Origin: Porphyra umbilicalis
Taxonomy: Eukaryota; Rhodophyta; Bangiophyceae; Bangiales; Bangiaceae
DNA: 64,000 nucleotides
Assembly (NCBI GenBank): GCA_002049455.2
Contig: KV918840.1
Coordinates: forward strand, 124,001-188,000
Reading direction: 5' to 3'
Made by a program: the position numbers and the translations under genes. The stretch's first letter is position 1. Every line of letters starts with the position of its first letter. The notes beneath the pieces are model-generated. The model worked only from the letters and a program-made list of their open reading frames with translations, was not told the origin of the DNA and made no database searches. Shown piece by piece: positions 11,766-50,171 of the stretch.

Positions 11766-11797
<32 letters not shown>

Positions 11798-22312: not shown

Positions 22313-25300
22313 TCAAACGGCGACGGGGACGGGTCCCGCNGCGCCGCGCAGGGCCGTCATGTCCGCCTCGCCAGCGGCCACGCGGCTGTCATGGCCGCCG
22401 CCCCCACCCCTGCCGTCGGCGGAGGCGTTGGCGTTGGCGACCGCCGCCGACCGCGCGGCGGAGCGGAGGCCCGAGCCCCACGCCGCCTTGCCGCCGTCGC
22501 CGCCACCGCCGTCGCCGCCGCCGCCGCCGTGACGGCCGTCGCGCACCGGATGCGACGCTGGGTGGGTGGTCATTGCCGCCGCCGCCGCCGCCGCCAGCGA
22601 CGCGGCCGCCGCGGGCAGAGTCGTCAGGGGCACCCCCGCCGACCCGCTGACGGCATCGCCGTGCCGTGCGCGCGTCGCGGAGCGGGCGACAGCCGCTGCG
22701 CGGATGCGACGGGCCAGGTGCCAAAACCGCACCTGGTCCTCGGCAATGTTAATCGCTCGCACCCACAGACGGGCCGCTTCCTCCCCCCGGTGGACGGCGA
22801 GCACGTCGGGGTAGTCGGACAGGGTCGCAAGCACCGCCTCGCGCGACACCGCCGCAATCTCGCAGTACGTGCCGCAGACGGCCTGCATGGTGCGGGGGCG
22901 CGAGAAGAGTAGCTCGTCTTCGCCAAAAACGTCGCCGACGCGGAGCTGCACGACGCCGTCGGAGCGGCCCGACGTCGAGCGCGCAGAAAAGTCGCCCCCC
23001 TCACCGCCACCGCCGCCGCCGCCACCGTCGTCCCCGTCACGCGAGACGCGCCCCCTGTTGGTGCCGCTGCCCGCGCCAGCACCATCCAGCCCGAGCCGGT
23101 CATCAAACGCGTCCATGCCGCCCTCACTCCCTGTCGACCGATCCCGGTCCCCCCCGTCATCCGGGATTTCCAGCGTCGCCTCTCCATGCATGAGCACATA
23201 CAGCGCGTCGGCCGTGTCGCCCGCACGGTAGACCAGCTCGTCGGGGCGAAAGAAGAGCTCCCGCGCCTGCGAACACACCGCTGCCAGTGCGGCGGGTGGC
23301 AAGTCCCGCAACAGCGTCGCCCGTGACAGCGCTTTGCCGTACGTATAGGCCATAACTTGCGCGCGCAGGTCTGGGCTCATCGCGTCGAGGAGCTGCTTCT
23401 CGTTCGCGATACGCAGCCGCTCATAGCGATGCTGGAAGTAACGGCGGATGTCAAAAGCCAGGGAGGAGGGCAGCTTGCGCAGCCGCGCATAATCGCTGAG
23501 CTGGTCCATCTGCGTACGGTGGTACATGGAGTTGACCGACAGCTCCGACACCAGCGAAGCCACGTTGGTAATGACGTACGCAAAGCACGCGGCGCCCATG
23601 AACATGACGATGACGGTGTAGCACCGCTCCCGGGTGTTCCGCGGCGTGATGTCACCGTACCCAATTGTCGTGACGGTAGCTGTACGCCGGGTGGGATGCA
23701 ATCAAACAAGAGCAGGGGTTCATATGCATTCGGTAACAGCAGTGCACGTGAGAACAGCTCGACCACATCAGACAAAGACAGGGGTAAAAGCAAGAAACTC
23801 GTCAGTACAGAGCCACTCAACGACGGGTTCCGTCTACACAGGTAGACCAACTCACCGAATGGCCAGCTGCTCGACCCACAGACACAACCACGCCCGAACC
23901 GAAATGCATCGCACGACAAACACCCAGAACGCCACCAACGTACCGGCCGAAAAAAACACCGACGCCACCCAACGCCCAAACAGGTCGTCTGGAATATCGT
24001 CCTGCAGGAGCCACGAGTCCTCCCCGTCCTCGTGCAGCGAACCGATGAAGTAGAAGAGGCACCCAATCCAGTGCGCGAGCAGCAACACCATCCCGAGCAG
24101 GTACAGCATGCGCAGGTACGCGTACTTGATGTGCATCCGCACCTCCACGCGGGTGAACGAGTTGCGCATCCGTGCCCGGCGAAAGAGGGAGACGAGCTTG
24201 GACAGTCGCAGTAGGCGGAGAAAGCGAAGGAGCTTGAAGAGCACCCCCGACTCGGAGGAGAATGCCAGCGACAGGGCGTCCCAGGGCAAGGTCGACAGGA
24301 TGTCGGGGACGAGCCAGGTGCGCGAGTAGCGAGCAGCAATGACTTTGCCACGCGTCTCCATCACCCGGTCGTGCCGCACGTAGCCAGTGACAAAGCACAG
24401 GAGGATGTCGGTCGCAAACGCCGCGTCCATGACCCGCTCCATCCAAAAAAAGAAGGACGACGGCGTCAGCCGAGCGTAAAAGCAGTAGACAAACACGGAA
24501 AAGGTTGCCACGTACAGCAGAAGCACGCACAAGACGGCGTCCCAAAAGCGCCGGAACCCCCCCGTCGGGTCAAAGTAGATACCAAACCAGCCACTGGCCG
24601 CCGCCGACGCGGAGCGGTGGCGCAACGCGTACCCGCCGTGCTTCTTATCCGCCACCGCTTGGAGGGCCACGTTGACCTGGTCCTTGACGAGCAACGCCGC
24701 GTCGCTGCTCGAGTCCGTCCTCCCCCCATTGACGCCACTGCCCGCCTGGGGCGTCGTGGCCGACCCAGAGAGCGTGTCGGACGAGTCGCCCGTCGACATG
24801 AGGGCGCCATCGGAACGGTTGCACCCGTGGCGCCGCGCCTCGGCGCGCCCCCGCGCGTCATCGTCCCGGCCAGCGGTGCCGCGGGCGACCGCGGTACCGC
24901 CCCGTGGGGAGCCGACGCCGCCGGTGCCACCGCCACCGCCGCCGCCCGACAAAGACGCGAGCAGCTCTGGGTAGGAGGAGGCGGCCGCGATGCTGCCGAG
25001 CCCCCCCCCTGCGCCCGCCCCCGATCGCCCCCGCCGGATGGTGCGGCCCGTCGAGCGGGCGACGCGGGAGCCAGCCCGCCCCGAGCTCGACGGCGCCCGC
25101 GTCTGTGAGACGCCCCCAGAATCGTCGCCCGACCACACATCCAGCGGGGAGACCTCCAGCGACCGGTGACGCTCGTCGAGGTGCCGCTTATACATACGCG
25201 ATAAGCGGTACATCTCCCGCACGTCGGGGCCGGGGAGGGGTCGAGGGGCGCCCGGTGCCACGCCCGTGGGGGGGGTCAAGCCGTGGTCGACGGGTGGCGG

Positions 25301-25840
25301 CGCAGCGTTGCCAAACGCCGACGGCAGGGGCGGCAACAGGCCGCCAGGCGGCCCCTCACCGAGCTCCAGCGGCGGCGGCAGCCGGCTGGCGCCATGCCGG
25401 CCGTCCCTCCCCGTCGCGGGGGTGCCCAGCGCGAGGTCGGGCAGCGGCGGGAGGCCTGGTAGGCCATCCCCCGCCCCATCTTGCACGACCAGTGGCGCCA
25501 GCGGCGCCAGCCCCCCGACGCCCGCCGCCTCGACCCGCTCAAAGGGCGTCAAGACGTTGGCGCCTGCGAGCAATGCCGCCGCCGACGCCGCCGCCGCCGC
25601 GTATGGCCCGCCCGCCGGCGCGGGGGCGTCGACGCCCCCGCCACGCCCGTCGCCGCCCGCTGCTGCCGGCGGCGGCACCGTCCCGCTGGCGGGCGGCGCG
25701 TACGCAGACGACGACCCGTGGGCGGGCGGCGGCGTCTGGGGGCGCGCGGCGGCGGCGGGGGGGGAGCCCCGCGGATCCCGGTAGGCGGCGTTGGCAACCG
25801 CCGCATCGCGAAGTGTGGCGCGCAGCGTGCCGCCATCCAT
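22313..25840 (-). CDS. Cyclic-nucleotide-gated / HCN-EAG type K+ channel
   Basis: Two exons, 25840-23944 and 23679-22313, joined by a 264-bp intron (GTACGT...ACAG), give 1087 residues. Residues 1-425 are Pro/Ala/Gly-rich and disordered. Six membrane helices follow: S1 about 432-456 and S4 with LLRFLRLLRL at 537-546. The pore contains the K+ filter TTIGYGD (about 636-642), restored only after splicing. A C-linker and a cyclic-nucleotide-binding domain (about 755-925) follow, with RAGDTADALYVL, FGEDELL and RPRTMQAV. A Gly/Asp/Ser-rich insert of about 65 residues interrupts that domain at about 806-873. Such channels sit in the plasma membrane and pass K+ under voltage and cNMP control. Start chosen as the ATG at 25838-25840; the frame is open further upstream to about 26095 without recognisable sequence. 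One ambiguous base (22340) lies near the 3' end. Confidence 0.88.
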
Positions 25841-26095
25841 TGTGAGAGGCAAGGGAGAGGGGCTGAGTGGCAGCGAGACGGAAATAAAATGTGGCCCGGC
25901 TTCAGGTACGGAAGACACTGGCGGTACGGGGTACGATGGTGCAGAAAGCAGGCCGAGGCCGCCCCACGACCACGGCAAAGAAGAGTCGGGCACGGTCGAC
26001 GGGAGCGACCACAACACGAACGACGGCGTGATGAGCGAAACCAGTGAGGTGCGCCGCCGACGGAGTAGACAACCCAACTGCCCTGCCGGCCGCAA

Positions 26096-31557: not shown

Positions 31558-31646
31558 TACACAGCGAGACGGATGCTCGTCCTTATTTAATCCTAGCCGC
31601 ACAATCGAGAAATCCACGGGATAAGACTGAGGATCGGTTTTCCCAT

Positions 31647-32796
31647 CGTCACCACCGGCAGAATCCCCATCCGTCCCAATCCAAAGCCTATCCGTATCCA
31701 AAACTCTGATGGATGGGCGTTTTTTGACGTCTGTGAGCGCCCCCCGATTCCCCATCCAAAGAGTTACTTGGATGGGCTTCCTCGACCGAGGCCAGTCAAA
31801 AGTCATCGGGTTTTTGTGCAGCACAGCCGTTTCTTTCCGGCCCTCGTCACGGCCGCGGAGAAATCCCGCCATCTCATTGGGCCAGCATCATTTCTACTCT
31901 TGTGGCGGGCCCTTGCTAACTGTAGCCCCCGTACCAGTCCCATCCTGTCCGCCGTGCTCGGCGGTCGGCGGCACGAGGTCGATTCTTGCTGTTCTGCGAT
32001 GCAACTCCCACGATTCATAGTAATTGACATTCAAATCTTGTAGATTGTGTCCGCGTCGTCGACGACACGACCAGACCGACGGTCGTCTTCTTCACGCCGA
32101 CAGACAGCGACAGGAGATGACTTGGCCTCGAAAATCGCGAAGAGTCGGAGACATCGCAAAACGCCGTGCTCCACGCAGCGCTCCGCTATTCGCTTTGAGA
32201 GTGCAAAAAATCCGTCACTTGCACAGTGCTTTTCGAAGTCACCGACGCCGCAAGCCCATTGCGAGGTAGCCCTTGCGCTGAGGCACTGGAGTCACGAACG
32301 CTGCATCTTTGCCTCCGCCGCGACTTCACCTCGTTGGATTCGGAGTCGGTCGTGAGGACGGCGGGCTCCAATCAAGGCACGTGCAATTGGCATGCTACAC
32401 AATAAAATACTTGTGGTACCAGCAGACCAAGTGCATCGGCCCAAACTGCTACGCGGTGTGGCCAAACCACGTGCGACTGGTAGCCAATCACATGGTCTCT
32501 TGGTTGTACATTGGGGTTTCTGAAAATGAAACGGCCGAGCCTGCCGAGGATCACACGCTGTCTCTCGAGCGGGCCACCTCGACTCGAAGAACTCACGGGC
32601 GGAACTCGGGACTACACCATCATCTCAGAACGCACATCCAAAGCCCATCCAAAGCCCAGCGGTATCCCATCGAAAACTCTGATGGATGGGCTTGGATGAG
32701 CGGGTGACGCCCATCCGTCAACATCCGAAGAGTGATGAGACAACATCCAAGGCCCATCTAAAACCCGGTTGGATGGGGATTCTGCCGGCGGTGGCG
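31647..32796. mobile_element. 1150-bp inverted-repeat element inserted in E1 copy 2
   Basis: Copy 1 of E1 is uninterrupted at 14801-14815. In copy 2 the same point holds 1150 bp bounded by AT on each side (31645-31646 and 32797-32798). Terminal repeats of about 26 bp begin CGTCACCACCGGCAGAATCC on the left and match at 24 positions on the right in inverted form. Both subterminal regions repeat CCATCC, TGATGGATGGGC and CATCCAAAGCC. No transposase-like frame. A 2-bp AT duplication does not settle the superfamily. Confidence 0.85.
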
Positions 32797-33515
32797 ATAC
32801 AGCCACATCGATTCTCGAGGTTGGTTCGACGCGTTTCTAAGATCGTACTGTATTGATCCACAGATTGGCTCAGGACCGTCTGTCAGTTATTCCGAAGGAT
32901 CGTCCTGAGGCGATCCCACACCCGATGTGGGGCGAGACATGGAATTAATCAGCACTCTATCCTGCGAGCTCTTCCAGTGCTCCCGTCTAGTCTATCCTCA
33001 ACATCATCGTGAGGATCACCTGCGGAATCTTCAGGAACAGTCCCCCAGATAGTCGTCAGGATCAAACTGAGAACCAGGCAACGGACTAGCCCATGGCAGG
33101 AGCAGTTGCACAAGTGGACACGTCGCTTTGTCGCCCAAGTGCGGTTGATCTTGGAGGGTCTTGCAACCGGGAACGACGCAAAACGTACAGATCTGACTAC
33201 CGGAACGTCGCTCGTCTCTTGCGCACGCACCTGAGTCTCGGGAGAGCCTCGGCGTGGTGCATTGCCTCTGCACCGCCCTCCTCCACCGTTTCTCCTGCAA
33301 CCTTGTCCTTGTACGCTGCTGTTATCGTACTGCCCCCGCTCCGTGCATATGCTCAGCTCGTGGTGTCACCTCTCCTCGCGTCGCACTGTGTACCGTCTCT
33401 ATATGAGGATCTCTTTGTTCTGCTTTCCCTCTGTGGTTGCGTTCTTGAGTTTGACCGTCTTATGCTTGACTATCCGTGTACACAAAAGGCCTCTCCCTGG
33501 ACTGACGTCTAGTGT

Positions 33516-36500
33516 GTGTCACTACCACTAAACTTGGGTGACTGCCCGTGCTCTTACAGAACGTGTTATTCCGCAGTGTACGACCACGGCACAAAAGAAG
33601 ACATGAAGCGTCGCCGGCGTGGCCCGCGAGGTGCTGCCTTCTGTCATCTCAATGATGGGAACCTATTGCACATGGAAGAGCAGCAAGCGTCATCAGGCTC
33701 GGCTGCCCGTACTGGCGGCTTGGAGGATCCTGAAAGCAGCGTCGCAAACCAAACCCCAGATGATTCAGGCACCAGGGAGGCACCAGCGCATTCTGTGGGA
33801 GACTATGAGGACGTTGCTCTATCCTCCGACTCTGGGCGTGACGGGTGTCCCTCAGATGACTCGGAATTCTCCTTCGAGGGGGACCGCGATCGTGGGGGCT
33901 TTGTATCACGTCGCGAGTTCGTGTGCTTCGGTTACCTGTACGGCAGAGCGCGCGTCACGCTGAGGCAGTACGACATTATGCGAGAGGCAGAAAACTCCTT
34001 TGATCCGACAGAAAAATGGCCGTCGCGGTGGCGATTGCGAAAACTGCGCGAGCACATGTTGAAGTCTGCAATACCCCTACGACGGGAGACGACAACACGC
34101 CAGCTACCTGTTGGAAAAGGGGAGGCCATGCGTAAACTGCCGAACGTGGAAGTGTCGTACATTACGTTTTCTGAGCACATAAAGAGGGACTTTGCGGATC
34201 CTGTAACAGCAGCACTGTTCCACAACAAAGGGGACTCTCGAATGGGCACTGTCGAGCGACCGGTCGAGTTCTTTCAAACAGTGGCGGCCAGGGACCCCGC
34301 CAGGTTTAATGTGAACAGGGTCTTCTTCCGTGACGAACACAGCTTTGACATTGGATGCACCGCCAAGATCTCTTTTGATGAAGCGACCGTGTTCGAGGCC
34401 CGCTTGTTAAGCACCTCCATGGCGCCTGACGGATGCGTAACCATATCGGCGTCCACGTATGCTCCTGAACGCACGTTGCGGGTAGGTGACTCACTCGCGC
34501 TGTTTGAGGCGCTCCCCGGGTTTATGCCGCCAGAGCGCTGGGCGTCCTGTTTCACGGAAGAGCGCCGTGTTACGCTACGCTTCACGCGGTCCGGTGGCGT
34601 GTTTGTTATCGCCGTACGGGAGTCCACCGAGCATGAAAAGGATTCATGGTCAGCTTTGACTGCCAGCAGCCCCTTAGAGCTGTCACATGTGCCTCAGCCC
34701 TGCGAAGACAACCTTTCCGAGAAGGACCCATATGTGCTGTACGTGTCGCTGTACGGCGACGAGTTCAATGTGCATAAGCGTCGCCGCGGAAGCCTGGAGG
34801 GCTACTACGGGGGTTACACATCGCTGTGCTTGGAGGATCGTGCGTATTCTGTCCGTCCTCTCTTTTACCTCCCCCCAGGAGCAAGCCCGGATGCCCTGCT
34901 CAAAAAAATCGTCGACGACTTGATAATAGCAGGTAAGGAGGGCTTGGCTGTCTATGACGCCTTCAAAAAGGAGAGTGTTGTCATTCGGGTGTACCTGTGC
35001 CTCGGTGTATTTGATTTCCCCATGGCCGCCAAGTTCCCCAACTCAATAGGCGCCCCAGGCACAGAGCACTGCACAAGCTGCGACATTGTGCAAACAAAAA
35101 CACTCACAGAAAGGAAGGAGAGAGCGATGAGCAGCACGGTATCTTTCAATGTGAAGGACTCACGGTACTCAAGAACGCAAGAGCGAACTTCTCTCATCAT
35201 GTCTGTCATAAAGAACAAACCGGGACTATCGACAGACGCAGTGAAGGACGCACTCCTCTTGAATGGCATTACGGACAAGACAGGCAGTCTAATGATGCGC
35301 CTGGCCGAGGCCCGGGGACCTGGGACGTTTGACATACACGAGCACGTCATAGTTGCTCCTTCACATCTACTATACTACAACATCGGCTCGCACCTCCTGA
35401 TGGAAGCGTACGAGGCGCTCTCAGTTGAGCAGCGAGACAAGTTCATGCGGGAAATGCGCCGAAGTGCGAAGCATGTTCCGACACACACGATCCTGTTCTC
35501 ATTCGAGCCAGAAAAAATGGGTGGCACAACTCTGTCAATATCAGACTATGCAGTGCTGATCACAGTAGGTCCCACTGTCATACAGTACCTTGTGCACAGC
35601 ACGGCCACGTCACCTCACGCACGTGCTGCTCTCAGAGGTCTCAAGGCCCTGCGACGGTTTTCCACGGCACTGTTCTATGTGCCAACACTCTTTTCGGACG
35701 GGGAGAAGGCCATGAGAGAGCGGCCGACCGTCGCTGAGCTCCAAGTTATGGGCGAGAGCCTCATGATTGAGCTGCGTAGACTATTACCCTTTAACGGAAG
35801 TTGGGAGAGACCGTCCGTACATCGTGTGCTGGAACTGTTATATCGCACCCTCCCACTTGCGCAGCTGGGGTCAGCGATATGTGAGCTCATTTTCGAGAAG
35901 TTCCACCAACATTCGAAGCGGGAGGTGAGCCAGAGTAACAGTCGGAACCCCGCTGAGTACTCCATGCAAAGGTGGAGAGACACAGAGCAGTACTCACGGG
36001 TTCTTTCCATGCCCGGCGCACATGGGATTCCTGCTTCGTGGCTTCTTGGTCAAGAAGGCCAGCCACTGAAGTCTGTCTCTTTTCATAGCCTCGGTCCTCA
36101 CAAACGACAATCACTGTCCACCAACATGCGCTGGCGTCCACGAACAGCCGCGCGCACGGTTCTGGGATCCACGGAGGAGTTCTGGCGAAGTCGTGCGCCC
36201 AACGCAACTCTGGCATTCTGGCGTCAAGCCACGCAAGCGCATCGACCGTCTGTCCTCCAAGAAGGGTCCACAGTGTCTCTGCATGAGAACAGAGCCACCC
36301 CCGAACACGAGTCCGGCTCCGATCTGTTGGATAGCAGAGAATTGCGCTTTGTCCGTGTGCAGTCCATTGGAACAATCGATGGCGAGCTCCATGTCGCCTG
36401 TGAGACCTGGAAGATACCAGCGATGGCATTCAGCGTCTTGGGACAGCCCGCTGAAGTCACAATCGACACTGAAGCTGGATTGTCTTTGATACCAGCTGAC

Positions 36501-36590
36501 CATGTGAGACAATTTGCCTTCGTTCTTCCCTGCGGGCAGCACAACGTGATGTTCACCAAGAGATCTGGCTTCCACTTCAAGAGTGGATGA
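33516..36590 (+). CDS. E1 transposase, intact (Plavaka/CACTA-like)
   Basis: A 1024-residue protein. Residues 1-130 are acidic and disordered. The core resembles the transposases of the CACTA/Plavaka/KDZ group. An Asp lies in VSLYGDEFNVHK (about residue 415), followed by a block with a CxxC (Cys519 and Cys522, HCTSCD) after FPMAAKFPNS. Next comes a helical block around VAPSHLLYYNIG, and a Glu (about 794) in ELIFEKFHQHSKRE, in the position of the third catalytic acid. A protein of this kind would cut and join element ends in the nucleus. It faces the JmjC gene tail to tail. The ATG at 33516 opens the longest frame; an ATG at 33603 is also possible. Superfamily naming is by motif order only and should be treated as provisional. 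Confidence 0.7.
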   Translation: MSLPLNLGDCPCSYRTCYSAVYDHGTKEDMKRRRRGPRGAAFCHLNDGNLLHMEEQQASSGSAARTGGLEDPESSVANQTPDDSGTREAPAHSVGDYEDVALSSDSGRDGCPSDDSEFSFEGDRDRGGFVSRREFVCFGYLYGRARVTLRQYDIMREAENSFDPTEKWPSRWRLRKLREHMLKSAIPLRRETTTRQLPVGKGEAMRKLPNVEVSYITFSEHIKRDFADPVTAALFHNKGDSRMGTVERPVEFFQTVAARDPARFNVNRVFFRDEHSFDIGCTAKISFDEATVFEARLLSTSMAPDGCVTISASTYAPERTLRVGDSLALFEALPGFMPPERWASCFTEERRVTLRFTRSGGVFVIAVRESTEHEKDSWSALTASSPLELSHVPQPCEDNLSEKDPYVLYVSLYGDEFNVHKRRRGSLEGYYGGYTSLCLEDRAYSVRPLFYLPPGASPDALLKKIVDDLIIAGKEGLAVYDAFKKESVVIRVYLCLGVFDFPMAAKFPNSIGAPGTEHCTSCDIVQTKTLTERKERAMSSTVSFNVKDSRYSRTQERTSLIMSVIKNKPGLSTDAVKDALLLNGITDKTGSLMMRLAEARGPGTFDIHEHVIVAPSHLLYYNIGSHLLMEAYEALSVEQRDKFMREMRRSAKHVPTHTILFSFEPEKMGGTTLSISDYAVLITVGPTVIQYLVHSTATSPHARAALRGLKALRRFSTALFYVPTLFSDGEKAMRERPTVAELQVMGESLMIELRRLLPFNGSWERPSVHRVLELLYRTLPLAQLGSAICELIFEKFHQHSKREVSQSNSRNPAEYSMQRWRDTEQYSRVLSMPGAHGIPASWLLGQEGQPLKSVSFHSLGPHKRQSLSTNMRWRPRTAARTVLGSTEEFWRSRAPNATLAFWRQATQAHRPSVLQEGSTVSLHENRATPEHESGSDLLDSRELRFVRVQSIGTIDGELHVACETWKIPAMAFSVLGQPAEVTIDTEAGLSLIPADHVRQFAFVLPCGQHNVMFTKRSGFHFKSG

Positions 36591-36835
36591 CTGGGGGCGT
36601 TTTTTCCAATGCGGCTGCGCTAGGATGGGGCTGAGTGAAAGAGCATATTGTGTTCGCTGGATGTATCACCTCACCGAGCAAAACGAGCAATATTGTCAAG
36701 GCAGTATCACACGAAAAGGTAGATGAAAAAAGCACACAAACCTCCACGCCCCACCGGGAACGTCGGAAGTAAGAGCTCAGGACCCGGAGACTATCAAACA
36801 AAAGAAAATCAGTGGTAACCAGAAACATGTCTTAC
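36591..36835. other. Gap between convergent E1 genes, copy 2
   Basis: Same 245-base spacer as in copy 1, with a handful of substitutions. Confidence 0.5.
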
Positions 36836-39800
36836 TCAAGAGGCACCCTTCCGCCCCCCCCCCCGAGCACCTTCAGCTTGTCCACCAACAGGTACACGCT
36901 GCTGTTGGACAGCCGCTGGACCAGCACAGGAGCATGGCATCCGGCCAGGTCCTTAGAAGTCGGAAGACCCTGGCGGAGCCGATTGTGCTCTGCATCGAAC
37001 ATGACAGGTGCACACCGCCAGCAGCACAGTGGCGCGTAAGGAACCGCATCATCACCGAGCTGCTCAATGCACGCCGGTCAGACCACCGCAGAAATCCATG
37101 TGACCACACCACAGTGTGGGCATGAAGCGCCGTCAACAGAGTAGTCTGTAGCAGTTCCCTCCATCTCGTTCGGGAGCACTAAGGGCTCACCCTCCGGCTG
37201 GATCGCATTTTCGACGATAAACCGCTAAACAGCTCGTGATGTGCTTCCAAGGGCCACAGCAGTGGGCTTTTTGCCTCCCCAGCCTGGCTGAGAGTCCACT
37301 TCCATGAAGGTAACGACACTGTTGAGGTACTCTTCTAAGTACGACACCATCACGGCGACATCTTGTCGGAACTCTGCTGGCTCCCACGCTTCGTAGGTCT
37401 TTGCATCGCCGCACCACCACTCCCCGTCGGCTAGCTTCTGAGCGGCAAGCACCAGCAACCTTTCGAAAGGGATGTGGATTGTGAGCTTCGTACGCCAGTG
37501 TGCGGCATGTTCTATCGCATAGGAGAGCCAACCCGTGCATGCCAGGTTCACCGCAGAGGCTATGTTTGGTCCCCCGTTGAAACCACTGTGCAGTACTCCG
37601 TACCCCGTTACAACAAAGTCCCCAGTCTCCATCGTGTGGAACCCCACGCGAACGCCATGCGCTAGAAACAGAGTCGCAGGCCAAAGGCACGATTTCACGG
37701 CGAGTACCTCCCATACATCCCCTCCAGCCGCTGCCAGTACAGCGGGGTCCATGTGTTCTCGCATGACGCGCTCGGCTCGCGGACGTTCGGGGGCAGGAAT
37801 AAAAAACCAAAACTTATTTGAGCCCTTCTGCAAGTACGATGAGGACTGCAGCAGACTGTCCTCCACGTGCCAGCTGAAGTGGGACCCTCTGGTCCCAGCG
37901 TAAAGCAGGTTGGTGTTGATCCCTTCGTACGTAGACGCGGCACCGAGCATGGTGTGGTGGTTTAGAGTGCGTGGATTCTCAAAGCGCTCACGAGGAGGAA
38001 CAGGAGCCGCTATGGCGGTACAGGAAGGGTCGCCAAGGCTCCTGCTGCACCCATCCTCGTTTCGAGGTGACATATCTGAAAGATAGTACACATCTATTGG
38101 TCTTGGCTCACCGCCCATCACCATCTTCTCGTTCCGAGCAGCGGTCACCTGTTTCACCCATGTGACGCTCGGATCATTCACACTGCTGAGGAAGCGTTTC
38201 ACACCAAAGTCTTTGTACTCGGCTCGAAGGGAAGCTGCGCTCTCGCTGACCTTTCGGTTGAGTTCCGTAGCAGACAACCGTTTTTCCCGTTCTGACGGCA
38301 GCTGAGCCCTCAACTCTTTGCGTTTCACACTAGAGTCGGCCGCAGGCCTGCCAAAGAATGCGTCACTCACGATGGTCGGGTATTGTGGGAAGGTCTGAAC
38401 GCGCACCCTGAGCTTATCCCCGGTATGTCGCTTGGGCATGCGACTGGACGGAGGACGCCTCTCGGGGGCTACTACTCGGAAAACGTGAGCACCAAATGTC
38501 CGAATCGACGCAATCTTTGATCGAATCAGACCGTGCATTCCGAATTCAGGAACCGATATCAATTAGGTAACAGGTGCTGAGTGGAACTGCATGACATGTC
38601 GTGACGAGGACCCAACCGCCTGGGCAGACGCCTGCCCTTCGTCGTGATGTGCTGCTGCCGGGCCACGCGCCTCATTGGCATGTGAGCCGCGGATTGAGGG
38701 GGCATGTGCTTCTCTGGCAGCATCAACATCGTGCTTGATAGCACCTTCTCGGCGCTCGGCCGTGGTTTCACGGCGGCGGCTGACCTCTGGGGCACCTTTG
38801 ACGTGGTCTGGGCAGTGTTCTTTCGTCGTAGCGTTGTCGGACACAGGCCCGAGCTGCATTGCCCTCTCGATATACGGTACGTACGACGACCCGGAGCGTC
38901 CAGGTTTGCCTCTGAAGCATGTAGAGGAGAGGGCCTCTGAAATAAACCTGAGGTCCTCCGCGTCCAAGCTGGATAACGAATCGTTATGGCGCGAGGCAGA
39001 GACTCCACTAAACAGAGACAAATCACCCCCAAGTTGACCACCTCCCACATCACAACCGCTACCGCCATCATCGTCCCGATCGTCGGCAGCTGCAGCGTCG
39101 GTGGCCACATGTCGCGCGTCTCCAGCAGCTCCGTCATGATGGCGTCGATGGCGTGGGCGAGCGACAACGTGTCGATCGCCGTGCGCGGCGGCGTCGACAC
39201 GGGTGTCGACGGCGCCGCCACCTATGCCATCACGGGCGGCGGCGTCTTGTTCTCGATGCACATGAACACCATCAACAGCAACTCCACCATCAAGGCGTCG
39301 GTCGTGCGTGCGTGTTGCGAGGTCTCCATCGCCGTCGACGGCGGCGTCAGCACGGGCTCCGACATCGCGGCCTTCTACTCCAACACGGGTGTCGGCATCG
39401 GGACGTCGCTTCACATGATAGCCATCAACGACAACTCCACCAGCACGGCGTCGGTCCTGCGCGCGTGCACCAACTCGTCCATCGCCGTCCACGGCCGCAA
39501 CATCTCGTTCGCCGTCGCCGGCGCTGCTGGCAGCGTCAACACGGGTGCCTGCAGGCACATGTGACTCATCAACAACGGCTCCACGATCACGGCGTAGGCC
39601 GTGGGCGCGTGCGGCGACTTGGACATCGCTGTGCACGACGGCGTCGACACGGGCGCCGTCAACGCGGCCGTCTCCTCCATGACGGCCATCGGCATCACGA
39701 CCTGCACGCACATGTAACACATCATCAACAGCTCCACGATCACGGCGTCGGCCGTGGGCGCGTGCGCCGACTTGGACATCACCGTGCACGACGGCGTCGA

Positions 39801-42420
39801 CACGGGCGCCGTCAACGCGGCCGTCTCCTCCATCACGGCCATCGGCATCACGACCTGCACGCACATGTAACACATCATCAACAGCTCCACGATCACGGCG
39901 TTGGCCGTGGGCGCGTGCGGCGACTTGGACATCGCCGTGCACGGCGGCGTCTACACGGGCGCCGCCAGTGCGGCCGTCTCCTCCATCACGGCCATCGGCA
40001 TCACGACCTGCACGCTCATGTAACTCATCAACAACATCTCCACGATCACGGCGTCGGCCGTGCTCGCGTACAGAAACTTGTCGAGCTCGGCTCTCAACCT
40101 CATCTTCTTCGTCACGGGCACGGCCGTCGGCTCTGTCTGCGTCTTCGCTCCCTCGAGCGCCACGATCCCCCGCTCGACCGGGAATGGAGCCGCCACCGCC
40201 GCCGCCATCGCTGCCGCCGCCGCCATCGCCGCCGCCATCGCGCGCGCTGCCACCTGCGCCAGCGTCTTCGTCGTCTGTTACGTCCTTCATGCAGTCCCCG
40301 CCGTCAGAGGCCTCGTCTTCGGACAGGTCGCACCCGTTCAAAAGCTCCGCGGCTGGTTCTTGCTCATGCCAGACCTTTCCACCAGGGCGGTGCGCTTCAA
40401 CAATGCGGCGGATTAGGCCACGCAGGCGCCGAGGAGAATGGGCCTTGCGCCATTGCGGGCCATCGTCGGCGCGCAAAAGGCACGCTGCTGCTGCGGGCTC
40501 AGTAAAGTGGAAAAGAGAAAAGTACGCCAGCAGGTTGTCGGCCGTGTCAGCCATCTCTCCGGCCGGGGTCCCCACACGGCGCACCGGCAATCGAGTCCTC
40601 AAGCATCCATTCACACGCATTCGCATCCCAATGCAGTCCTTGCTGCGCAGGCGGGTCTGGCAAATGGCTGCGGTCAAGGAGCAGAAGAGGCCGTTCAACA
40701 CTTCAAAGTCAACCTCCGCGCCTCCATTCCCCGCGTATGTGTTGATGAGCACCACGGCGGCCCCGTGAACGGGCTCGGCTTCGCCGTCGAGCACGGCCTG
40801 AACAACCAACGGCACAGCCTTGTCTCAGCCTCGAATAACCACCCCCGACCAACCCCGGCCACTGTAAACCGGCATGACGACCGTACCGCCGCTGAAAACG
40901 AGGCGGTTGAGCAAGACGCTGGCAGCCCTGTTCACGATCAAGACGTCGTCCGTCGAGGCGTCCTTAACGACCTCGCCGTCCAGTGTAGAGAGCACGCGCA
41001 GGCCACCGATAACACCGCTGCTTCTCGCCCAGTAGAGGAACCACAATAGGAGGCCGTCCATCATGTGCTTGGGCATTTCCATGCCCTCTTCCAAGGACGC
41101 CAAGTCCGTTGCCGACAGTTGTACGTGCCGCTCGGCGCGGACCGGGAAAAGAAATCGTGGTGGCACTGGGAGACTCGATGCGGAGGGCACCGGACAAACG
41201 GGCACAGAGCGTGTCCTCGAGGGTGCGCCTGCGCTAGAGGCGCGTGGAAGCACTTGAGGCCCATGCGGCGGCGGGGGTGCAAAGGTCGTGACAGTGGCCG
41301 TCGACGGGGGGTCGCCATCGCGACTGGCCTTTAGACGAAGGCGCTTAGGAGGAGGTGGGGCTTGGCGTAAGAGTGGCCGTCTACGTGCGCTCAGGTCGGC
41401 CACAGCCTTGGCACGCGGCGCGATCGGCGTGTTGGAGGGACGTGGGGCCGGCACAGGAGCAGCAGGCGTCGCGAAAGGGTGGACAGAGGGCGGGGCACGG
41501 TGGGCCACGGCAGAGCATTGGCCCTTGCATCCGTGGGACGCCAAGGCTTGATGGAAGAGGAAGCCTGCTGCCGCAGTGTCGCCAAAACTCGGCACACCGT
41601 CGACGTCTTCGTGTAAGATCCTTACAGCTGAAGCCAATAGCGAATCAATCGCTTCGACGTCGCCACAGCCGCCACGGCACTGGCTCAAAACTTGCAGCCG
41701 GCTGGGGCTGGGCAAGTACCCCGGCCCGGCGAGTTCCAGGGCCGACAAAAGCATCCGCATCTGCGTAGCTGTCAGCCCGCCTACACGACCAGCCAGTACA
41801 CGCCGCGCATCGTTGATGACCGCGATCATTTCGGGCGCAGCCTGGGCCCCGTCGACCACATGCACCGCCCCGCGTGCCATAGCATGTGTGCGCTGAGTCA
41901 CCCGCCTGCCATGGCCATACGCTGTAGTCTGTTGCGTCGCCCCCGGCCGACCACGTACACTCATCCCACGCGCGAGCTGGAGACCCCTGACAGATATGGA
42001 GGCACTGTCTGCCACCGGGCCGAGCGGCGATCCGCTGCCATTGCCATGGTCTGGCACGTGGGAGGGCTCAACACGGCGAATCGGCTGGCCCTCGCCACCG
42101 CCGCGTCCTGTCCCGCTGCCACGGCCACGACGACGGCCACGGCCGCCACCGCGTCTGCTTCCAAGTATGCTGCCGTCCGGAATCGCGGGGGCCGAGTGGG
42201 CGTTACAATCGGCTTCTCGAGCCAGCGCCACCGCCCCTCGTTCAAAAGCATCCACGGCATCGACGGCCCGCGTGGCTTCTTCAACCACGCGGGCCGCTTC
42301 CGCAGTCATAGCGTCCGCCCGCCGACGGGCGCGTGCCACCTGACGACGTTGGTTTCGAGATAACTCGCCCGGCAACGGCCCGAGAGACTCTGATGCATCA
42401 CCCCCCTCCATAGCCTGCAC
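36836..42420 (-). pseudogene. E1 Ulp1-like/JmjC fusion gene, copy 2, three stops
   Basis: One register runs from the ATG at 42418-42420 for some 1730 codons, with in-frame stops TGA (40825-40827), TAA (38563-38565) and TAG (37225-37227). A C11 versus C12 run near 36860 shifts the last few codons. From the N-terminus there is a basic, Ala-rich region, then a stretch patterned like Ulp1/SENP peptidases (KHMMDGLLLWFLYWA and VVMPVYSGRGWSGVVI). After that come acidic and Gly-rich linkers, 51-residue repeats, the JmjC domain with its HxE...H ligands still present, and the Cys-rich tail. The Ulp1-like stretch lacks the expected HW and DCG. The first two stops in the JmjC half are codons that are open in copy 1, so they are recent. 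Confidence 0.75.
39150..40075. repeat. 153-bp coding tandem repeats, E1 copy 2
   Basis: Best preserved from about 39590 to 40040, where GCGGCCGTCTCCTCCATnAC recurs every 153 bp (39665, 39818, 39971). More diverged units extend left to about 39150. Each unit encodes 51 residues in the JmjC-gene register. As the unit is a multiple of three, several other frames are open as well. Confidence 0.85.
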
Positions 42421-42517
42421 CCACCGACGAGGTGACGAGCCAAGAAGCGCAGTAGAATCAGAGTGGCGGTCAATAAAAAAGTCGGTGGTTGGTCGAGGGT
42501 AATGGGCAGAGCCCCCT

Positions 42518-44080
42518 ACGCCACCACAGCGCGATCAGCTCTTTCGGGCGATCGGCGGCGGACTGCCTCGTACCCACCTTCGGGGTGACGGGAAAACTTC
42601 CACAGTGAGGACCGCCCACCCGGTGGGGCGGCCAACTCAAAAAACCCAGCGGTCGGCCCCTGCAAAAGGGACACAGCCCGCGGAAATATCAGCGCGCAAC
42701 GGCCCTCCTGGGCGGTGTGCACGAGTTCGGCGCGCACCCACCGGCGGGGTGACGAGCTCGATAAAACACGTCAAGCCGGCCCACCTAGTGTCCCGGCGAC
42801 TTGCAACAGCCAGCGGTTGGCCCACGAGAAGTGACACAGCCCGCGGAAATATCAGCGCGCAACGGCCCTCCTGGGCGGCGTGCACGTGTTCGGCACGCAC
42901 CCACCGGCGGGGTGACGAGCTGCAAACAATATGTCAAGCCGGCCCACCTGGTAGGCTAGCGACTCGCAACAACCAGCGGTCGGCCCCTGCAAAAGGGACA
43001 CAGCCCGCGGAAATATCAGCGCGCAACGGCCCTCCTGGGCGGTGTGCACGAGTTCGGCGCGCACCCACCGGTGGGGTGACGAGCTCGATAAAACACGTCA
43101 AGCCGGCCCACCTAGTGTGCCGGCGACTAGCAACAGCCAGCGGTTGGCCCACGAAAAAGAGACACAGCCCGCGGTAACAATAGCGCGCAACGGCCCTCCT
43201 GGGCGGTGTGCACGAGTTCGGCGCGCACCCACCGGTGGGGTGACGAGCTCGATAAAACACGTCAAGCCGGCCCACCTAGTGTGCCGGCGACTAGCAACAG
43301 CCAGCGGTTGGCCCACGAAAAAGAGACACAGCCCGCGGTAACAATAGCGCGCAACGGCTCTCCTGGGCGGTGTGCACGAGTTCGGCGCGCACCCACCGGT
43401 GGGGTGACGAGCTCGATAAAACACGTCAAGCCGGCCCACCTAGTGTGCCGGTGACTAGCAACAGCCAGCGGTGGGCCCACGAGAAGGGACACAGCCCGCG
43501 GTAACAATAGCGCGCAACGGCCCTCCTGGGCGGCGTGCACGTGTTCGGCACGCACCCACCGGCGGGGTGACGAGCTGCAAACAATATGTCAAGCCGGCCC
43601 ACCTAGTGTGCCGGCGACTCGCAACATCCAGCGGTCGGCCCCAGCAAAAGGGACACTGCCCGCGGTGCAAGCAACGCGCAACCGCCCGTGCGGGCAGTAT
43701 GGACGCGTTCGGCACGCACCCACCGGCGGGGTGACGAGCTCGAAGGAAAATTCAAGCCGGCCCACTCGGTGTGCCGGCGACTCGTAAATGCCAGCGGTCG
43801 GCCCGAGAAAAAGGGACACACCCCGCTGCACAAGCCAGCCCCGCTCGCCCAAATGGGCGGTTGGTGACACCCTCACACAAGCACCCGCCGGCGGGGTGAC
43901 GAGTGATAATGCACAGTGAAGACCGCCCACCCGGTGAGGCGGCCACTCCAAAAGGCCAGCGGTTGGCCCCCCGCGAGAGGGACACAGCCCGCGGCTCTGC
44001 CAAAGCGCGATCGCCCGTTGGGGCGCTCCGCGGCGGTCTGGCCCGCACCCACCGGCGGGGTAGCGGGCCTCAAAGCTCAA
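42518..44080. repeat. Satellite array, unit about 164 bp, nine to ten units
   Basis: The anchor words CACCCACCGG(C/T)GGGGTGACGAG and AAGCCGGCCCACC recur at 164-167 bp spacing from 42583 to 44060. Two unit types alternate: one with GAGCTCGATAAAACACGTC and one with GAGCTGCAAACAATATGTC. The outermost units are most diverged (42540-42620 and 43900-44070). Open frames through the array are by-products of the repeat. It begins about 100 bp upstream of the E1 copy 2 minus-strand gene, so it could be the subterminal part of E1 or an adjacent satellite. Confidence 0.88.
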
Positions 44081-45293
44081 TCGTGCCCCCAAAAACAAAG
44101 CCAAGGGGAAGTAGGAAAGGGGGGAACAGGGTGTGCAATAGTAGAATGAGATCAAGAGAGGGGGGACAGTATTACCAAGCGAGTAGGGGATCGGTACATG
44201 CGTCGCTGGGGTACTAGACGTACTGAGGTACGGTACAGTGATGGCACGAGCTCGACGACGGTGATACGTGGTCGAGACCGCACGTGCTGCTCTCCGAGTG
44301 TTGCGGAGGACAGTACCAGGCTCGGCCGCGTGCTCTGGGCGTGCCACGGTCAGGCACGGCCGCCACAGCCGCGCGTGCGGCTGAGAGGCTGTGCGCTCCC
44401 CCCCCCACACCGGATACGTCGGACACCCACGTCTGGCAGGCTGCGCGACGGGCGCGGAACACCATGTGAGATCACCCGTCGGCCCCGGCTGGGTGGGCCG
44501 GATAGTGAGCAATCTCGAGAAACGATGGACACTGTTGCCTGGCGGCGGCGTGGAGGGCGCGGCGCACCATGTGAGATCACATGTCGGTGGCAGACGGGTG
44601 GACCGGATACTGAGCAATCTCGGGAAACGATGCAAAATATTTACCACATGCAATCACACATGCAGTCAAATACACGCCGCCGTTGCCGACAGAGATCTGC
44701 AGCAATACTGTAATCAGCACCGGCGACATTTCAGCGTACCCTGACTGGCTGCTAAACCAGGGTTTAGGGACTCATCGCACCAGGACGTGGTTCTGGTTCT
44801 ACGTGATTCATGCAACATGCATATGACGTCACGCGACGGCGACAAATACGTCAACTTACGGTTTTCGTGCCCCGCATCTCCCGCTGGAGAGCAGTAGGCT
44901 GCTCCACGCATGTCCTGTATCCGGCTCTGAGAGGGCATCTGCGCCTGCTCAGGGAGGTCGTGAGGTCCAGCTCTGCGGGGCACTGACCCACGGAGATCCT
45001 GCTCTGGTGCTCGGGAGCTATGCGCTCGCCTCATATCCGACTCACTGAGAGCGTACGCCTTCTCTTTGGCAGATGCGAGTCACTCTGTAGGGCTGCGCCC
45101 ATAGCTACGCCCACCATACCTGATCCTGGAATCACTCCACTGTGCCTGAGACCTCGCTACGCTTGCGGAGCGCACGGTGCGCACGGTGACTGAGACTCGG
45201 TGACACGTGCGGAGATACACACCTCGACTGCCTCCCTGATGCGCTTGCGGAGCGTCGGACGTTGATTGAGACGCGGTCACGGTTGCAGATACA
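44081..45293. other. Non-coding stretch with two short tandem duplications
   Basis: A 107-bp unit starting at the word CACCATGTGAGATCAC is duplicated at about 44460 and 44567. A second, diverged duplication with CTTGCGGAGCG occurs near 45163 and 45246. No domain-bearing frame. Confidence 0.5.
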
Positions 45294-46420
45294 ATGCCCA
45301 GCAGCGATGCTGATGATGCTCCTGATGCTCCCTCCCCATCGCCAGTTGTCAATGGCGCCCTGTTCGCGAGCGTCTGGAACGAACATGGAGTACGTTTCCC
45401 GCTTGAATCAGTGGTGTTTCGTGCACGGCTTCTATCCGAGTTCCTATCTCGGATGATCCCTGATCTATTACTGGTTGTACGAGTTTTCTGACGCTGTCTA
45501 ACCCGTACGCATCATCCTCGTACTCGTGCCTTTCTGCCGCTGTGTCGCACCTCTTGCTGAACCAGGATGACTTGAGTGTTCTGTTTTCGCGATACGCGCA
45601 GGCGATGCTAAAGAAGATCTCCAATGGAACAGTGAGCCCTGGGAAAAGTGGTAGCAACGTGGACTCGCCCGAACACGATTGCCTCTCATGGCTGGCCCCC
45701 CCTGGACAGCTGGAAGGACCCAACAGAGACTGTACTCGCTCACTTCGTGCAGTCATGACCAAAGCTGTCGAGAAGTACGCGAACCAGATAGATTACGCTG
45801 CCAACGGCTGGACAGGAAACAGACGTGCTGTAAAGATGGCTCTGAAGAAGGGTCTACGCACTCGCTGCAACCGAAGACGCACCTCTGCTCGACTGCTTGC
45901 ATATCGGACTCTCGGAGTATACATGGACAGTGATGTACCGAAGGCATCCATGGAACGCGTGGTCCTCAGTGCGGGCGCAGAAAATGTCGCTTCGGGCGGC
46001 GCGCTGGCCGAGAGCACAGTCTTTGGGTACCGTCTGAAGCTAAAAGACGGTGACAACGAGGTCGATCGAGCGCTTGATCTGAACGGAGCGGCCGCGACAA
46101 TCATTGCTGAGCTTCTGTTTCTGGACTCAAGTGAAGTGTGGACCTCTGTGCGAGCAGCCGGAGCCGCCTGTCTGAAGAGCTATGTGCACAGCACGTTGTC
46201 AAATTGGGTCACGGAGAACTTAAAATATATGCGAACCGTGAGAGGTCGTGAGAGAAATGTTTTTCCATGCAGCAAACCTCGTGACACCATCCTCGCAAAT
46301 GTCGCTGTGTCGATCTCTAAAAGGCTCTGTCTGAGAAGGCTTTCTGACACCCCCAGAGACCTTCTTACCCCACCCACCTGGTCACCCCTACCCATGTGCG
46401 TACTCGTCTACTCCCAATAG
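45294..46420 (+). CDS. Hypothetical protein, probably two or more exons
   Basis: The ATG at 45294 opens a frame (MPSSDADDAPDAP, then VNGALFASVWNEHG) which ends early unless a 92-bp intron (45474-45565, GT...CCAG) is removed. Splicing there joins it in phase to a long frame containing DDLSVLFSRYAQAMLKKIS, then KALKK-type basic helices and a mixed alpha region ending near 46330. The frame stop at 46420 may lie in a further intron, because the last 30 residues turn Pro-rich. A protein-like C-terminus appears about 1.7 kb downstream. No family recognised and no membrane segment seen. Moderate GC and normal composition suggest real coding. Confidence 0.5.
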
Positions 46421-47640
46421 CTGCGGGCACCGCCCAACCACGGACACTTGTGCTTGCCTCCTTTCCTGTCCTCTCCCACTCCTTTCTCCTGCTGGCAGGG
46501 GGGGGGGGGGCGAGGGGGGCTGCACCTACATGCCGAGGGGGTCGGGGAGGATGGGGGCGCAAACGGTGTCGCTAGAGTGGGACGGCTGCTGGCATTGCCG
46601 TGCAGAGCTCTGGCAGGGTCATGGGGCAGGTCCTCCTTGCGCGATCAAACGGCACCCTTCACACCCAGTTCAAGGCAGACTTGGCGTACACAGTATGCAT
46701 TCTTGCGGGCACATGGAGACCTCTGCTCGGACGCCTCACCGTCGTAGCTTGTGTCAGCCAGACTTTGTTCAGTACCTGTTGGCATGATAGTCTGCTACCA
46801 ATGGGGACCCAGGATGCGCCCCCGGTCAACCGGGCAGCCAACCAGCGGGCTGGAAAACGTCAAGCCTTGTGCTTGGGGATAGCGGGGCGATTAATAATAA
46901 TTCGAAGTGCTGGGCGGCGCCAATGCGCGCCCTCGGCATGTGTGCAGGTGACTGCCATGCTGCCCCCAGCCCCGCTCCTGGCTGCCGCCCAAGTGCACAA
47001 GTGCTGCCAACATCCCCGCTCGCTCTCCTGGCCGACCGCTCGGCCCACCCTCCTGGCGGACCGCCCCGCCTACCCTCTGGTCGACCGCCCCACCCACCCT
47101 CCTGGCCGGAAGCCCCGGCCACCCTCTGTTCGATCGCCCCGCCCACCCTCCTGCCGACCGCCCTCGTTCCTGTCGTATTCTTATCTGCATCCCCTCCATC
47201 CCACGCATTCTCTCCAGCTCGCACGGGGGCGGGGGGGAGTCACTCTACGACGGGCCGGACGACGTTTGCAGTCGCTGGACTAGTGGTGGTGGCGATTGGG
47301 TGGGGATCCACACTGGCGCAGTGTGGATAGTGTGACGCGCGCGGTGGGTGGGTGGTGGATGGGTTGGATGAACTGACCACGTACTTCTTTTTCGTGTTCG
47401 CTCGCCCGTCCCCCATGTATCCTTACCATGCATATGTGCGATGGCTTCCTCTTTCTTGGCTTCTGTTTCTTTGCAAACCAATGGGTGTTGCTGACATCGA
47501 AGTCGAGTAACTTGTGTCATACGCACATGCATGCGTGGTGTCCGCGAGTCGCTGACATGGTGAGCTTGCTGTTGTCCGGTGGCCTGTAGCTCTGTCAGAG
47601 TTTGCGGCTGTGTGCAGTTAGCTACATGTCTGCGTGACTC
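46421..47640. other. GC-rich spacer or intron, no gene recognised
   Basis: Contains a G-run (about 46498-46515), Cys/Pro-coding CCACCCTCCTG repeats (47040-47155) and GT-rich DNA. Frames are short and mutually contradictory. Confidence 0.4.
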
Positions 47641-47779
47641 TGTAGCACACCGTGGCTTTCTTATCGATTTCGTGTCTGCTCTGCCACCCGTGCCCGCGCC
47701 GAGCAACAATAAAGCGACCGTGTCTTTCAATGCATCTTTGGCATGTATCCTCAATGCTGGCCGGTGTCACATCCTTTCC

Positions 47780-48147
47780 TCCGTCAGGGTCTTGCTCCAC
47801 TTCTTCCCCGAGACCTCCGAGGGATCATTGCGGCGAGTCTCGCAACATATGTCTCGAAGGATGTGAACTTCTCCTTAAAGATTGGGCAAAGAGGAGTTAT
47901 GTACTCATTTTCGATCTCTCTCTGAACGCAAAGGGGTCGAGCAGCAATACGGTTCGGCCTTGTTGCAGATACCTTGGAACCTGACACGAGATTTCATCAA
48001 CGCGCTGTGTGGATACTGCACAGTACCGAAAGTTTTTGCGCCCGGAGAGTACCGAGGCTCGCAACGGCGTCGTCCGGTGCATGCGGGATGAGTTGCAGGA
48101 CCTCAAGGCTGGCGATGTCAATCTCTCCGATGAAGAACCAGACTAGG
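47780..48147 (+). pseudogene. Fragments of a coding sequence in three registers
   Basis: Three protein-like stretches follow in order but in different frames: RDLRGIIAASLATYVSKDVN (about 47810-47870), NLTRDFINALCGY (about 47978-48018) and a convincing acidic C-terminus MRDELQDLKAGDVNLSDEEP ending at a TAG at 48145-48147. They could be small exons of the gene starting at 45294, or a broken gene. Family unknown. Confidence 0.35.
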
Positions 48148-50171
48148 AGGCTCGTACCGCTGCTACTTGCAGTCAACCCCTTGTCGTCTACCGTGCTGTC
48201 GAGGCCCACGACTCGATGCTGACGCCGGTGGGCATGACGTGCATACCGTCCTGAATACGTTCTTCATATAGTGGTGGTCTCGCACGTTTTCTTTGTCGTT
48301 CCTGTTGTGTTTGACCGTCCATTTGCCTTTTTATTATTGTCATTTATTTGCTGGATCCTGTCGTTTTTCCATATATTTTTCGCAGTTTTCTCCAATATAT
48401 TTTCTTACATCCCGTCCACGAAAAAAACTGAGGGACCTCCTGTCGGTAAATCTGACAGATAAACAGCGTACCCACCTACGGAATCGTCTTGAAACATGTC
48501 CTTGGGACTAGTTGCGCGCGTCGTCGCAAGAAGAAAATCAAAAGCAGCTCTTCAGCCGGTCCATGGAACCATCATGGGAATAATGTGGTTCTCCATATTG
48601 AAGACCTTCTTGGAGGACATACCTGGCTTTTTTTGCCGCAATATTCTGTCGCACGTTCCCAGAATCATCGCTATGCATGTGTCTCGCATCGTACACAGAG
48701 CTAGTCCTTTGTCTATTTTGGAGATGGTCTCGCCGTCTGACGTCGCAATCGTCCCTGGTTCAGGCTCTTGCGCAGTTCTCAAGAAAGGAATGACGCGTTG
48801 CTTGTGCTCTTGCTCCGAGTACATCGCCTAAATGGGATTCTGATAAAACCCTGGACCAGTGTTTTGAAAGTGCCTATGGTTTCACTTGGGGTTCAGTCCA
48901 GAGACCATACCCCACGATACGCCGCAAAGCTATCTTGTACACAGACTGGAAGGCAGTCGTGGAAACAGTCCGGAAAACAGTCCGGACAACAGTCCCTGAA
49001 CTGATCCCAGGACCATCTTGCGTCGAAACCCAAGGTAATCACAGGATGGCACCAGACAAATTCCGAAATCGATCTGCGGGACGAATCGAGCCGTCTCAGG
49101 AGATAATCCTCAAGATTATCTCACACAATTCCAGGAACTTTCCTAAAGATACGCCTCAGAGCTGCCTTCGATCGAAGAATAATAACTCCTCCTTATTTCT
49201 GTCGGAAGAAAAGATCTCACTTTATCTCGTGAATTTCATACCACCACGCAGTGTATGAGAATACCTGATTTGGTGCCTACGAACACAAGCTGTTGCGCTT
49301 CCCAACGGAACCACGAGGATTTAATTCATTGGCTCAAGCTCTGCGGCGAGGCAACCCCCTGAATGTCATCCATACGAAAAAGAACTGGTACGAACGCACA
49401 AGAATCACGCCTTCCAGCAGGACCGACGTCAACCCTCCCTGCCCCTCCCCCCCCAGGAACCCCCAAAACGGCGATTTGGACTTGCAACGATCACGCCGTC
49501 TCACCCGATCGGTCTCACCGTCGTCCCTGCCACCGCCCCACTCTGCCACAGAGGCGAGCCACCAATGGCTAAGACGGTCATGTGTGCACTTTGTAGAGGC
49601 TGCTCGTACCACGGGAGGAGGCACCTTTCCCGCCAGCGGACACGAAAGTGGGACCAGAAAACAGGTGGCCGAAGTCGTAGGCCAGCCCACCTCTTCCCCG
49701 CCCCCCCCCCGGCTCCCCTGTTCGATTCCTCCGTCCTCCCCCCATGACACTCCAACAGATCATGAGACCCGTCTTCCATCGACAGTAGTGCCTGTACTGA
49801 GCGCCGCCGCCCCAGAGTACCCAGGTACCTCGCTCCTGTGATCGAGGACCAGTCGCCACGAAGCGCCGCAAGTAGCAGGGGTGACAGTCAAGGGCGTAGG
49901 CTGCCCCGACCGTGAGCTATTCCTTTACTGTTCCCCGGTCCCTCGGCCGCTAGGTAGCGCTAAAGGCTGTGTAGGCATAGACCTACCCCCCCCCCCCTGA
50001 TCACATATGGGGCGCGACAAAAGTTGGCGCTACAACCGTTCTTGAAGAGAAATGGCTCGTATTTAAAGAGTCTCCTGTTGACCCAAGACCAAACAGGCAC
50101 AGCTGGGCTCATTTCTGTTGTCGAAAGTGCCATCCAACGAGCTGTTCGGCGAGCAGAGGTCATCCAAAAAC
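48148..50171. other. No gene recognised
   Basis: AT-richer DNA (about 48260-48470), then mixed sequence. Competing frames lie on both strands at 48496-48831, neither with a known domain. Around 48940-49150 words such as CAGTCCGGA and GATAATCCTC repeat in a manner reminiscent of transposon subterminal DNA, but no paired ends were found. Confidence 0.35.

Follow-up and report, generated by a model that had tools for sequence, protein, structure and literature searches.

What is a gene for a JmjC-domain oxygenase doing inside a DNA transposon? The question is raised by a 64,000-nucleotide stretch of the red alga Porphyra umbilicalis (assembly GCA_002049455.2, contig KV918840.1, positions 124,001 to 188,000 of the forward strand; this whole stretch is hereafter the window, and positions are given within it). 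A sequence-only reading had described two copies of an element, E1, each with a transposase gene on the plus strand and, tail to tail on the minus strand, a gene with a full JmjC core, and the open reading frames (ORFs), strands and order are as it claimed. Extending the comparison to the whole genome (83.8 Mb, 665 contigs), we found that the JmjC gene is part of the mobile unit and travels with it, shares the descent of the transposase and has been subject to purifying selection. As to its purpose, the reading we favour, with moderate confidence, is that E1 stems from an old CACTA/EnSpm-type lineage with a captured JmjN/JmjC-type demethylase gene, which would serve anti-silencing by histone demethylation.

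The second window copy (W2) spans 31560-49253 (17,694 bp, two later insertions included) and is flanked on both sides by the target-site duplication TA (31558-31559 and 49254-49255). Its left terminus, CACAGCGAGACGG (31560-31572, plus strand), is common to six copies with unrelated flanks (W1, W2, C17, C117, C294 and C301), while the right terminus, CACCACGCAGTG (49242-49253, minus strand), was derived by comparing C17 with C117; the two ends form a short imperfect inverted repeat (CACAGCG / CACTGCG). All six copies with both ends read have CAC..GTG ends and matching 2-bp target duplications, namely AT in C17, TT in C117, CT in C294, TC in C301, AC in C254 and TA in W2. The left end of C92 was not found within the DNA stretch fetched, and the other window copy, W1, retains its left end only. 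For W2, the extent proposed earlier (31558-42517) was sound on the left, where 31558 belongs to the target duplication and the end itself lies at 31560, and fell short on the right, where the element actually runs to 49253. Two other placements of this edge were also ruled out: a right end at 46300, since other copies run on past that site, and a right-truncated W2, since an insertion interrupts the copy ahead of its true end. The intact-length copy C301 measures 14,025 bp, and W2 is longer because of insertions of 1150 bp and about 1.8 kb.

The predicted transposase is a tnp2-like ORF of 1024 amino acids (33516-36590, plus strand) with D415, D500, C519-x2-C522 and H653-x3-H657, its catalytic E, in ELIFE, being assigned by eye. 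Metagenomic relatives number 10 for the transposase and 36 for the JmjC protein. In the transposase alignment of 11 rows (the window plus the 10 metagenomic relatives), D415 and C519 are invariant, D500 and C522 nearly so, and H(3)H is present in seven of the nine rows that cover it, with the last E again placed by eye. Against the tnp2 profile PF02992, the window transposase scores slightly below the cut-off (E 1.2e-5, 25.1 bits; cut-off 28.6), and related E1 transposases pass it (e.g. C206, 37.6 bits). In the available part of Kojima 2025 (PMC12730594), CMCT/EnSpm elements are characterised by C(2)C and H(3-4)H between the second D and the last E, by 5'-CA..TG-3' termini and by target duplications of 2-5 bp. 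Because it combines a D/D/C(2)C/H(3)H transposase with CAC..GTG ends and 2-bp duplications, E1 fits this definition and, on its sequence features, is a CACTA/EnSpm-type (CMCT) DNA transposon.

The association of the two genes recurs across the genome. There are 105 matches to the JmjC profile PF02373, and the window JmjC as query has 97, whose identities range between 35% and 100%; 61 of these have no internal stop. A transposase similarity search, in which 45 of 311 candidates were scored, yielded 48 matches, and in 46 of these a JmjC gene lies tail to tail on the opposite strand at the transposase 3' side, mostly 595-900 bp away. The 136 matches to PF02992 divide into 69 E1-type and 67 of another type, separated by profile start in a split chosen after the list had been inspected; a JmjC gene lies within 7 kb of 60 of the 69, and within 10 kb of 0 of the 67. 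Seen from the JmjC side, and with 10 fragments dropped from the 97 matches, a transposase was found for 61 of the 78 loci at 43% identity or above. None of the nine loci at 35-39% was paired by search, because the transposase searches are too insensitive there, and three of the nine show the C-terminal end of a transposase on direct reading. When the DNA was read directly, a transposase stood beside the JmjC gene at all 21 transposon-type loci (the window copies and 19 fetched), and at C173, C212 and C164 (33-36% JmjC identity) only the C-terminal end of the transposase, 25% identical, was in reach; no transposase was seen on direct reading beside the JmjC genes L001, L002 and L003. In C27, the JmjC element is followed downstream by another E1-type transposase fragment, which is diverged (L027, 8443-10000).

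Selection and descent were compared for the two genes. Between three subfamilies, JmjC has a ratio of nonsynonymous to synonymous substitution rates (dN/dS) of 0.111-0.165 and the transposase one of 0.119-0.166 (five pairs for each gene, with dS from 0.3 to 1.6 and C27b left out); for the N-terminal region of the JmjC protein the ratio is 0.09-0.25. Identity to the window copy is correlated between JmjC and transposase, with r 0.96 over 42 pairs, but r falls to 0.46 when the set is restricted to the 27 pairs below 80%. In the tree, the 21 transposon and six metagenomic JmjCs form one clade (100/99), which L003 joins (100/98), apart from L001, L002, JMJ13, JMJ14 and KDM4D. Ends, pairing counts and tree together bear out the earlier expectation of a pair found many times over, in copies that have their ends in common, with host JmjC genes more distant.

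L003 (C344:3311-6673) is of particular interest for the origin of the gene. It has no transposase within 1.5 kb, and its contig, C344, is in neither transposase match list. Its alignment with the transposon protein continues through the JmjC domain and the Cys tail (336 amino acids, 28%), while that of L001 is confined to the JmjC domain. L003 shares the Cys tail and an Asn-to-Ser change with the transposon JmjCs, and its match to JMJ13 (7e-33) is closer than that of the transposon protein. We regard L003 as likely to be sister to the transposon JmjC clade, a placement that is likely rather than proven because long branches meet (a treekit warning), and likely also to be a host JmjC gene of the progenitor lineage of the transposon JmjCs. 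The simplest reading would be that the E1 lineage captured an L003-like gene of the host once, long ago; the reverse direction, domestication of L003 from the transposon, seems less likely.

The core for which the element attracted attention is indeed complete. The window JmjC ORF (37225-38562, minus strand, 445 amino acids) matches the Pfam JmjC domain above the cut-off (E 1.4e-15), and the Fe ligands H232, E234 and H325 are present, as are Y221 and K250. Judged by C16, which carries the same frame uninterrupted over 2570 amino acids with JmjC towards the C-terminal end, this ORF is a fragment of a longer protein frame, which in C16 leads from a conserved N-terminal region through long tandem repeats and a stretch that by eye is JmjN-like to JmjC and a cluster of Cys residues. 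In W2, the N-terminal part of the frame (38563-42420, minus strand) comprises 153-bp tandem repeats and the conserved N-terminal region, and the Cys-rich tail is placed in the same frame past the stop (36836-37224, minus strand; coordinates inferred by offset from the W1 ORF 18846-21797). The Cys-rich tail described in the sequence-only reading accordingly holds for W1, where it is in frame within the 983-amino-acid ORF, and fails for W2, where it follows the stop at 37225-37227. A combination of JmjN, JmjC and a C-terminal C5HC2 zinc domain marks demethylases of the KDM5/JMJ14 type. In the E1 protein, JmjC was the only domain that Pfam found, the JmjN likeness being by eye only; no TET/JBP dioxygenase domain was matched by Pfam on the JmjC frame, the N-terminal region had no match in Pfam or PDB searches, and the Cys tail had no sequence match in the PDB. 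A Ulp1-like fold for the N-terminal region was considered on a by-eye resemblance and set aside, as Pfam and PDB gave it no support and the structure model failed (mean predicted local distance difference test score, pLDDT, 34).

By sequence, the closest solved relatives of the JmjC domain are JMJ13 (5.5e-19), KDM4D (3.3e-18) and KDM5A (1.3e-16), with JMJ13 the top match in repeated comparisons. Among the 21 transposon copies, the first H and the E of the Fe site are kept in 21, the second H in 20 (D in C98) and the 2-oxoglutarate Lys in 19 (Gln in C301 and L005). With these exceptions, the E1 protein has the HxE..H Fe ligands and the 2-oxoglutarate Lys of JmjC histone lysine demethylases, and is predicted to belong among them. 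It is this JMJ13/KDM4/KDM5-like core with conserved Fe ligands that makes anti-silencing the best explanation for the gene, and the selection acting on it strengthens the case; the proposal to this effect in the sequence-only reading is plausible. Mechanistically, a histone demethylase gene of the JmjN/JmjC type would have entered an ancestor of the E1 lineage, its probable source being the host gene that L003 represents today. The product of the captured gene, a putative Fe(II)/2-oxoglutarate demethylase, may clear E1 copies of a repressive methyl mark on histones, most likely trimethylation of histone H3 lysine 27 (H3K27me3), with H3K9 or H3K36 possible. Removal of the mark would allow the transposase to be expressed, the ends to become accessible, or both, and the protein may be anchored on element chromatin by its N-terminal region and repeats.

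A number of observations weigh against this reading, and several of them lend themselves to other explanations. Nine of the 69 E1-type transposase matches, some being short frames, have no JmjC gene within 7 kb, and nine full-length JmjCs at 55% identity or more had no transposase found, C1:443878 among them showing one on direct reading. The former count would suit a JmjC gene that is a passenger, or a host gene lying between unrelated insertions, which was the outcome that the sequence-only reading had named as fatal to its proposal. This seems to us scarcely credible: E1 ends and target duplications enclose the gene, the pairing is genome-wide and purifying selection extends across subfamilies, and for a host gene between insertions the ends, the duplications and the pairing led us to reject it. 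Among near-identical copies dN/dS is unstable, at 0.17 to 0.93 and up to 0.93 for JmjC (C27b transposase codons there come partly from a neighbouring element). In W2 itself the JmjC protein frame is cut by stop codons at 37225-37227, 38563-38565 and 40825-40827. The Asn that contacts 2-oxoglutarate in KDM4 is Ser in all 21 transposon copies and in host L003. Together with Gln at the 2-oxoglutarate Lys in two of 21, this change could point to a catalytically weak JmjC retained as a chromatin-binding scaffold, an idea we consider highly improbable given that the first H and the E are intact throughout, the second H in 20 of 21, and that the host gene has the same Ser.

The substrate, moreover, is not readable from the sequence; JMJ14 and KDM5 are almost as close as JMJ13. 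Both JMJ14 and KDM5 act on H3K4. The protein might thus remove an activating mark, H3K4me3, and restrain E1 itself or shut down host genes or rival elements, and KDM5A/5B/5C and JMJ14 are indeed among its sequence and fold matches. We nevertheless find such a function distinctly unlikely, as the top sequence match, JMJ13, is an H3K27me3 enzyme by the title of structure 6ip4, and an element that multiplies would profit less directly from restraining itself. The structure model of the JmjC domain is poor (mean pLDDT 51), so that its Foldseek matches to JMJ13 and KDM5B, over the whole length with a template modelling (TM) score of about 0.2, carry little weight. A Pre-SET (H3K9) search was uninformative, its control having stayed silent.

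A further possibility is that the protein acts in transposition or target choice, either as a chromatin-bound integration guide or as an oxygenase whose hydroxylation substrate is the transposase or some other partner. Hydroxylation of non-histone proteins is within the range of JmjC enzymes, and the tail-to-tail coupling and a dN/dS equal to that of the transposase would suit any essential function. We think a role of this kind unlikely, since the closest solved relatives are histone lysine demethylases, and since the 67 other-type tnp2 matches in the same genome without JmjC nearby indicate that tnp2 transposition needs no JmjC in general.

Anti-silencing by histone demethylation can also be set against the silencing context of this genome. 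A C5 DNA methylase domain (PF00145) had no match in a six-frame genome search, for which the control answered in 10 of 14 genomes and which intron-split genes can escape. E(z)-type CXC-SET domains are multicopy, with 76 CXC and 85 SET matches, a CXC lying just upstream of 71 of the 85 SET (e.g. L049, L052, L053, L054), and many belong to open frames about 900-1400 amino acids long. Since no C5 methylase domain was found and E(z)-type CXC-SET is present, histone marks rather than 5-methylcytosine (5mC) are the likely silencing layer. In another red alga, Cyanidioschyzon (C. merolae), H3K27me3 covers about half of the repeats, according to the available parts of PMC5405695 (also PMC8788455 and PMC8616336). 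When all 85 SET matches were used, none lay within 15 kb of any of the 77 JmjC loci checked. In a comparison of SET-tnp2 distances that used 69 of the 85, a tnp2 match stands 10,716-10,729 bp away from each of three SET loci (C5:124453/135182, C313:77047/87763 and C482:28693/39418; L054-L061). The C5 and C313 loci are about 99% identical at both the SET and the tnp2 sites; ends of a putative E(z)-SET element were sought at these two and not found, and segmental duplication is possible. It is conceivable, and we offer this tentatively, that transposons contest one mark, with E1 carrying JmjC as the eraser and other repeated elements carrying, as the writer, an H3K27 methyltransferase of the E(z)-type CXC-SET kind. 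If true, Polycomb-like H3K27 methylation would be a battleground of mobile elements in a genome without a detected 5mC methyltransferase.

The remaining features of the window can be described briefly. W1 matches W2 at 97% identity over 7.3 kb (14720-22131) and, as an element, comprises the left half only (14722-22133), the right half being lost; its transposase (15529-18597) has one stop. Within W2, an array of 164-bp tandem repeats (42491-44068) precedes a third ORF (45464-46186, plus strand; 285 amino acids in C301), which continues at 48009-48143 past an insertion and had no match in a Pfam search. The 1150-bp insertion (31647-32796), not in the other copies compared, has 28-bp inverted ends that are 93% complementary and resembles a miniature inverted-repeat transposable element. 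The nested insertion of about 1.8 kb inside the third ORF (46187-48003, edges uncertain by a few bases) has CACAGC..GCTGTG-like ends and is perhaps a non-autonomous CACTA relative. Elsewhere, long minus-strand ORFs at 7491-11881 resemble, by eye, a Ty1/copia-type polyprotein, and minus-strand ORFs at 22313-26095, which adjoin the broken right edge of W1, a cyclic-nucleotide-gated potassium channel.

E1 resembles CACTA/EnSpm (CMCT) elements in its tnp2-type transposase, where D, D, C(2)C and H(3)H are present, in its CAC..GTG ends and in the 2-bp length of its target duplications, and it goes beyond them in an opposite-strand gene for a JmjC protein of up to 2570 amino acids and in its third ORF. 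The function proposed for that gene recalls VANC of Vandal MuDR elements, which to our knowledge is not a histone demethylase. VANC likewise represents transposon-encoded anti-silencing (cited in the available parts of PMC12730594 and PMC8616336). Nearest in design are fungal DNA transposons, EnSpm included, that carry a TET/JBP dioxygenase proposed to counter silencing (Kojima 2025, PMC12730594, in its available part): as in E1, an Fe/2-oxoglutarate dioxygenase lies beside the transposase, but theirs acts on methylcytosine in DNA, in fungal hosts, whereas the E1 JmjC is of the histone demethylase group. Histone-modifying enzymes are also found on HarbingerS and MuDR families whose cargo is a SET histone methyltransferase (cited in the same part of PMC12730594), a writer on other superfamilies, in contrast to the eraser-type JmjC of E1. 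In the endogenized giant viruses of Amoebidium, a host-derived KDM4-like JmjC has multiplied inside selfish DNA as in E1, though in giant virus insertions rather than in a cut-and-paste transposon (PMC11244446, available part). Enzymes that demethylate DNA (TET/JBP) or methylate histones (SET) are already in print as cargo of DNA transposons; the term 'JmjC' occurs 0 times in PMC12730594, and a JmjC-carrying DNA transposon was not among the matches listed from one open-access library, a scope outside which Repbase reports fall.

The E1 lineage has kept a histone demethylase-like gene through synonymous divergence of 1.3 per site or more, which would extend transposon counter-defence to histone marks. 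The genome of P. umbilicalis supplies about 60 transposase-JmjC pairs of natural origin, along with a JmjC-free family as internal control, and makes active erasure of histone silencing by transposons directly testable.

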